This document shows, in pieces, positions 2,094 through 2,648 of a stretch of 64,000 nt of DNA. Numbering within the stretch: position 1 is the first letter of the stretch; each line of letters opens with the position of its first letter. A program made the translations under genes and the position numbers. Source of the stretch: Megamonas hypermegale (GTDB lineage Bacteria > Bacillota > Negativicutes > Selenomonadales > Selenomonadaceae); assembly GCF_900187035.1 (NCBI RefSeq), contig NZ_LT906446.1, forward strand, positions 620,001 through 684,000, in the 5' to 3' direction. The notes under the pieces were generated by a model. That model worked only from the letters and a program-made list of their open reading frames with translations. It was not told the DNA's origin and ran no database searches.

Positions 2094-2537
2094 TATGGAA
2101 GTAATTCAAATTGGGAAAAGGCTAGAGTAAAAGTAGCTAAATTGCATGATAGAATTGCCAATCAAAGACGCAATTTACTACATCAAGTGACATGTCAACT
2201 TATCAGAAACTACGATGTAATCTGTCTTGAAGATTTGCAAGTTGAAAACATGATGAAAAATCATAAATTAGCAAGAAATATAGCTGATGTCAGTTGGTCA
2301 GAGTTTATGAGACAACTAACATATAAAGCCAAATGGTTTGGCAGGGTTATTGTCAAAATAGATAAATTTTATCCTTCAAGCCAATTATGTCATATTTGTG
2401 GGTATAAAAATATTGAAGTAAAAGATTTAAATGTTAGAGAGTGGAACTGTCCTGAATGTAAAACACATCACGATAGAGATGTAAATGTAGCTATAAATAT
2501 TAGAGATGAAGGATTAAGAATATTAAACATAGCTTAA
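2094..2537 (+). pseudogene. tnpB: TnpB, 5'-truncated C-terminal fragment
   Basis: The open frame begins after the stop at 2091-2093 and reads [22 protein letters not shown], then a zinc finger (CHICG and CPEC) and [10 protein letters not shown] before the TAA at 2535-2537. These are the C-terminal half of the RuvC-like nuclease TnpB: the RuvC-II glutamate in CLEDLQ and the RuvC-III aspartate in HDRDVN are present. The N-terminal half, with the wedge, recognition domain and the RuvC-I aspartate, is missing; full-length family members are about 370-400 residues and only about 147 codons remain. No good start codon with a ribosome site is seen (a TTG occurs at 2142). The protein should be inactive as a nuclease. 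Confidence 0.88.
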
Positions 2538-2648
2538 TCTTGAATAACATATACAAGAACCGTAGGAACTATGGGGATAGCTCGGAGATACTGTATTCGT
2601 TAGAATACTTGACCGAGAACCCTGCGACTTTAGTCGTGGGAGGTTCAG
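2538..2648 (+). ncRNA. Omega-RNA-like 3' region of the IStron
   Basis: The region between the tnpB stop and the right border folds into nested stems: GCTCGG (2580-2585) with CCGAG (2613-2617) enclosing TATTC/GAATA (2594-2598, 2603-2607), then a terminal hairpin CGAC-TTTA-GTCG (2625-2636) and a GGGAGGTTCA tail reaching the border. In IS605 elements this segment is the scaffold of the TnpB guide RNA, with the guide taken from DNA just beyond the right end. Here the guide would be methyltransferase exon sequence from 2649 on. Whether the RNA is still made is not known; the partner protein is truncated. Confidence 0.6.

Follow-up and report, generated by a model that had tools for sequence, protein, structure and literature searches.

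A probable non-autonomous, tnpB-deleted group A IStron at two unrelated loci of the Megamonas hypermegale genome

Introduction

Why should an IStron whose nuclease gene has been cut to less than half keep its intron, its RNA folds and its borders intact? This question is raised by an element inserted in an O-methyltransferase gene of Megamonas hypermegale, within the 64,000-nt stretch of DNA analysed here (the window; feature coordinates are window positions on the forward strand unless a contig is named). A preliminary description of this DNA had proposed that selection maintains only the parts needed for splicing out of the host gene, leaving a quasi-resident intron that full copies might mobilise in trans. 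From the comparison of all copies in the genome, we find it probable that the element is instead non-autonomous, derived by internal deletion from a group A IStron family whose copies have multiplied in its own genome. It is better described as a non-autonomous element whose parts could be used in trans than as a resident intron.

Results

The element and its host gene

The IStron occupies positions 1534-2648 (1115 bp), directly 3' of TTGAT, and its borders read TTGAT, then TATTGTGAGC...GGTTCAG, then ATGG. These limits follow from the comparison of 12 copies and from an empty site in a second genome of the genus (G001); the interval 2094-2648 given previously is the 3' half of the element only. 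The TTGAT at 1529-1533, which is both the target and the end of the 5' exon and by analogy may be the TAM of TnpB, precedes all 12 copies of the genome and 5/5 copies of G001. Joining exon 1 (1204-1533) to exon 2 (2649-2918) restores a single frame of 202 codons from stop to stop, and the joined protein matches Pfam Methyltransf_3 with 94.8 bits over residues 23-198. The G001 orthologue (L155) is uninterrupted and aligns without gaps through TTTGAT/ATGG, with 415/616 aligned bases equal. From what is established for TnpB, the first bases of exon 2 would be the guide of any 3' RNA leaving the element.

At the left end an imperfect hairpin is predicted at 1549-1570 (a 9-bp helix, 1549-1557:1562-1570, in the element fold), which by analogy with IS200/IS605 elements could have a role in transposase recognition. 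GTCAG at 1586-1590 is a candidate internal guide sequence that, matched by eye, could pair with the exon TTGAT (U-G, A-U, G-C, U-A, U-G), and the element fold draws a 7-bp P1-like helix, 1530-1536:1583-1589, at this place. The group I intron catalytic core (1586-1925) matches Rfam RF00028 over the entire model (1-253 of 253) with 73.2 bits, the gathering score being 50. Mutated core positions, which would speak against an intact intron, were looked for, and at each of its 340 nt the core agrees with the majority of the 12 copies.

Group A IStrons are marked by a group I intron of subclass IA2 in their 5' part, by insertion 3' of TTGAT, ATTAT or TTTAT, and by an IS part that follows a GAACGA-like motif behind P9.2. 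Several traits of the group are present: the 5' group I intron, GAACGA at 1967-1972 with an enclosing stem (1999-2024:2541-2566) behind it, and the TTGAT target, the TCAG end and the lack of a target duplication, which are seen in 12/12 copies and at the empty site. A trait absent from the window copy is the IS200/IS605-type ORF B (TnpB), of which codons 1-226 are deleted. Tourasse et al. 2014 (PMC4227781) count copies with a truncated ORF B as IStrons, and we therefore file the window element as a deleted group A member. The element is real and well delimited, and the group to which it belongs, with its tnpB deleted, is a known one.

Two RNA structures share the 3' part of the element. The ORF-enclosing helix, with its 5' arm at 1999-2024 and its 3' arm at 2541-2566, is paired in 274/288 cells over 12 sequences (from this genome, G001, three more genomes of the same order and two Clostridioides records), with double-sided change in 4/24 pairs. 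The 3' arm overlaps the 5' part of a guide-RNA-like scaffold (2557-2646), predicted with RNAalifold from 13 sequences and closed by GAACC 2557-2561 : GGUUC 2642-2646; this closing stem is invariant, and double-sided changes occur in 10/27 predicted pairs. Helix and scaffold thus both have covariation, and conservation that reaches other genera. Because both use bases 2557-2561, they are mutually exclusive. A right-end hairpin of 8 bp with a 4-nt loop lies at 2621-2640, and for the region 2538-2648 the predicted folding energy is -32.6 kcal/mol (z = -3.0 relative to 200 shuffled sequences). With the RF00028 match and the exact empty-site junction, this fold upholds the earlier view that intron core, 3' fold and borders are intact.

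The tnpB remnant and its deletion

The tnpB remnant is a 147-codon open frame (2094-2537, stop at 2535-2537) carrying codons 227-369 of 369, without an in-frame ATG near the deletion junction. It keeps RuvC-II (CLEDLQ) and the zinc-finger/RuvC-III part; codons 1-226 and the start are gone, including the RuvC-I motif GLDLGIKDF (codon 182 of the full-length protein). Pfam finds Cas12f1-like_TNB in the remnant (86 bits) and a partial OrfB_IS605 match below cut-off, and in the full-length protein all three TnpB domains are matched. The frame and the full-length comparison therefore confirm the ablated TnpB of about 147 codons, with the retained and missing parts as first described.

At the junction (2105/2106), element position 572 is joined to 1305 with a 1-base overlap, so that the element lacks 732 bp, positions 573-1304, that the 1847-bp copies have. 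A single internal deletion thus removed the nuclease, which did not decay gradually. A GGAAGT repeat near both breaks does not coincide with the junction. The left break falls within a small indel hot spot, and other deletions begin at most about 25 bp away (L011/L015/L018, L019, L016). The loop within the enclosing helix, about 1.25 kb long without the deletion, shrinks to about 0.5 kb, and both RNA folds are untouched; both large deletions in the genome lie inside the enclosing helix and spare the helix itself. That no TnpA is encoded had also been listed among the losses, and this is true of the window copy but is no sign of reduction, since 0/12 copies encode TnpA: besides tnpB, no forward frame of at least 100 codons was found in any of the 12 copies in the genome.

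Copies in the genome

The search for full-length relatives that the preliminary description had called for was made in the complete genome (G000; one contig, 2.23 Mb). It holds 12 copies, all above the Rfam cut-off for the intron. Nine are full-length (1833-1847 bp), and the 369-codon tnpB is open in 8/12 copies, full-length L014 being interrupted near the N-terminus. Two copies are 1115 bp long and have the same 732-bp deletion: the window copy and L009 (G000:C1:1061975-1063089), in which the junction is base-identical (G000:C1:1062498-1062529(-)). A junction pattern search allowing at most 3 mismatches returned exactly these two copies in the genome, nothing in G001 and 0 matches in viral contigs. 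A further copy, L016 (G000:C1:1324219-1325064, 835 bp), is intergenic, has a different, independent deletion and scores lowest among the 12 for the intron (66.7 bits). With the TnpB protein as query, genome contigs gave 8 distant archaeal matches at 28-43% identity, and viral contigs gave one at 60%.

L009 interrupts a gene of PolyA_pol/CCA-adding type, the only PolyA_pol match of the genome. With one such gene in the genome, splicing there might seem indispensable, but the tRNA genes weaken this idea. CCA is encoded in 32/32 distinct tRNA genes examined (around the best 30 of 55 Rfam tRNA matches). The cell may therefore manage without the CCA-adding gene, and the insertion in it says less for splicing than would first appear.

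Insertion sites

Ten of the 12 copies lie in genes, all 10 in the sense orientation and with flanks that join into one long frame, which lends indirect support to splicing; L012 and L016 are intergenic. All five copies of G001 are likewise genic and sense. The Pfam scan covered the host proteins of 8/10 genic copies (without L014 and L017), and all 8 gave domains, among them OMP decarboxylase, cytidylate kinase, PolyA_pol, asparaginase, aldo-keto reductase and ABC ATPase. On a rough ORF map of the 64,000-nt window, the sense fraction of TTGAT sites within genes is 0.59, an expectation under which 10/10 sense copies have a probability of about 0.005. Further, 11/12 copies are codirectional with replication, whose direction was taken from dnaA at 1.935 Mb and a skew change near 0.8 Mb; the exception is the intergenic L012. 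Of the sense-genic TTGAT sites, 0.79 are on the leading strand. Given leading-strand insertion alone, the probability of 10/10 sense is 0.054, and selection for the splicable orientation and strand-biased transposition are therefore not separated by this genome. The phase of insertion is unsurprising, with 9/10 genic copies after a GAT codon against 0.75 expected.

We also considered group I intron reverse splicing as the route of spread, given that all genic copies are sense and that TTGAT matches the candidate internal guide sequence. It is not preferred: TTGAT also suits an IS605-type TnpA, and 2/12 copies are intergenic.

Constraint and recombination among copies

Per-site diversity among the copies is lowest in the core, at 0.0029; tnpB reaches 0.016-0.028, and the 3' region has 0.013. 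Within the genome, the 8 open copies have a mean dN of 0.011 and dS of 0.064, and by this sequence measure the tnpB of full copies is under constraint. The two deleted copies are mosaic in their alleles, an observation that bears on whether the deleted form arrived by conversion or by transposition: the window copy differs from L009 at 10 sites, of which 4 are private and 6 have alleles present in full copies, and the difference-free tract around the junction extends only from about 2017 to 2209. In the four-gamete test on 12 copies, 518/1128 informative site pairs fail, hence recombination among copies has been extensive. The mosaic pattern among the near-identical copies is very strong in the 3' half of tnpB (window 2106-2537).

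The proposal that selection keeps only the splicing parts is not supported by this comparison, as the left and right hairpins, the TTGAT/TCAG borders and the guide scaffold are equally intact. In either 1115-bp copy the remnant differs by just a single private codon change, so the deletion is too recent for differential decay to be visible. To call the element a selected, resident intron is thus premature, with the mobility parts intact and too few private changes for relaxed selection to show.

Discussion

How the deleted form may have arisen and spread

One deletion of 732 bp, lying between the two arms of the enclosing helix, removed tnpB codons 1-226 and left the RNA parts and DNA ends in place. 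We propose that the window copy should then still splice from the methyltransferase mRNA, which would bring ...TTTGAU next to AUGG.... With its ends and guide-RNA scaffold unaltered, the window copy could still be acted on by enzymes made elsewhere: the eight open full-length copies could supply a TnpB that takes up the 3' RNA of this locus, and the element could have been moved by a TnpA that the genome now lacks. To reach the second gene, that of PolyA_pol/CCA-adding type, the deletion would either have been mobilised in trans or have entered a resident full copy through ectopic conversion. The flanks of the two loci are unrelated, which sets aside segmental duplication. One trait of a non-autonomous element mobilised in trans, the identical deleted form at 2 unrelated sites, is thus seen. 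Another, a cognate transposase source in the same genome, is absent, as the only TnpA is IS200-like with other ends. No TnpA with matching ends was found in the genome, where the four Y1 matches all belong to one IS200-like element; its four near-identical copies (L029-L032, roughly 752 bp) have a single Y1 transposase and terminal hairpins that differ from those of the IStron. G001 has elements with both TnpA and TnpB, whose right ends are unlike that of the IStron as printed.

How the same deletion came to stand at two loci can be read in several ways. Mobilisation in trans, which had been suggested with full copies as the helpers, remains a live explanation of the identical deletion at the second locus, but conversion can also explain it without transposition. 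That the deleted copy was transposed by a TnpA since lost, or residing on another replicon, has in our judgement close to an even chance. Both ends and the TTGAT border are intact, the flanks are unrelated, and 11/12 copies run with replication, as single-strand insertion into the lagging-strand template predicts; for IS608 and ISDra2, single-strand transposition into this template is linked to orientation with replication. Against this, the genome lacks a TnpA with matching ends, and replication orientation is confounded with gene sense at the TTGAT sites. The deletion may instead have arisen once and been copied by homologous recombination into a resident full-length IStron, so that the deleted form itself never moved. 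This ectopic gene conversion is a serious contender, if somewhat short of an even chance: many site pairs are incompatible with a tree, the difference-free tract is short, and 6/10 differences are full-copy alleles, but exchange following transposition leaves the same mosaic.

Two independent, precise losses of the same segment at a hot spot would remove the need for any transfer. Other deletions do begin close to the left break, and the available text of Tourasse et al. (PMC4227781) reports excision of the ORF region of BcISt1 with reproducible borders; the junction here, however, is base-identical with an overlap of just 1 base, and the GGAAGT repeat is not at the junction, so that we hold recurrent deletion to be improbable. 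It is also unlikely, though less so, that the element is a domesticated resident intron kept solely since the host gene needs splicing. The core is unmutated, the host frame is open on both sides, and a 517-bp ORF-less relative (L184) shows that such an endpoint exists, but the mobility and guide-RNA parts are equally intact and the private changes too few.

Returning to the non-autonomous derivative, it is conceivable, though on balance doubtful, that TnpB-less IStrons are guide-RNA parasites, in that they would retain the omega-RNA scaffold for the TnpB of sister copies, which, loaded with their locus-specific guide, would protect or restore them at the donor site. If true, this would explain the intact scaffold, not the intron alone, and also how a deletion could spread among the copies of a genome without a matching TnpA.

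Relation to known IStrons and TnpB systems

TnpB and the omega-RNA of IS200/IS605 elements such as ISDra2 are marked by a 3' RNA whose scaffold ends at the element border, by TTGAT and by a RuvC/zinc-finger nuclease. The full copies match these traits; the window copy differs by its broken nuclease and its intron.

Among IStrons, MfISt1 of Megamonas funiformis is a group A member described from one full-length copy of 1839 bp in the available text of Tourasse et al. 2014 (PMC4227781). It is alike in its TTGAT-type target, its TCAG end, its order of group I intron then tnpB and its lack of an intact tnpA, and its reported 1839 bp is the size of one G001 copy (L108). In contrast to that single full-length copy, there are 12 copies here, three of them tnpB-deleted. 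IStrons with a truncated ORF B are already known from Clostridioides difficile, where, according to the same text, CdISt1 copies with 'truncated ORF B only' also have a degraded ORF B and a kept intron, and truncated CdISt1 splices. They belong to another species, and the parts of PMC4227781 available describe no single ORF B deletion common to several loci. The ORF-less BcISt1 of emetic Bacillus cereus has likewise lost its ORFs and kept the enclosing stem, but, in that source, it is of group B (IS607 type) and its copies sit at orthologous loci, which points to vertical descent and not to several sites per genome. The text argues that IStrons need ORF B to spread and are unlikely to be helped in trans. 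In the literature searched, mostly open-access papers, we found no ORF-B-deleted IStron at two unrelated loci beside full copies. Nine full copies, two with a common deletion and a third deletion in one genome offer a natural test, in which splicing and guide-RNA output could be compared at different loop lengths between near-identical copies in one cell.

In other genera of the same order, the intron cores of L183, L185, L187, L190 and L191 are followed by another kind of TnpB-like frame, which starts MYLTVKQQ... and, when complete, has about 420-450 codons, and the tnpB of the window family had no match to these frames at E 1e-4. The relative L184 (G076:C13, reverse complement 1575-2091) is 517 bp long and has no ORF; this group I intron/IStron is of group B type, follows CGG and ends in CGG. 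It lies in a PTS EIIC-like gene (named by eye) whose joined flanks form a 599-codon frame, and it represents a natural endpoint of ORF loss.
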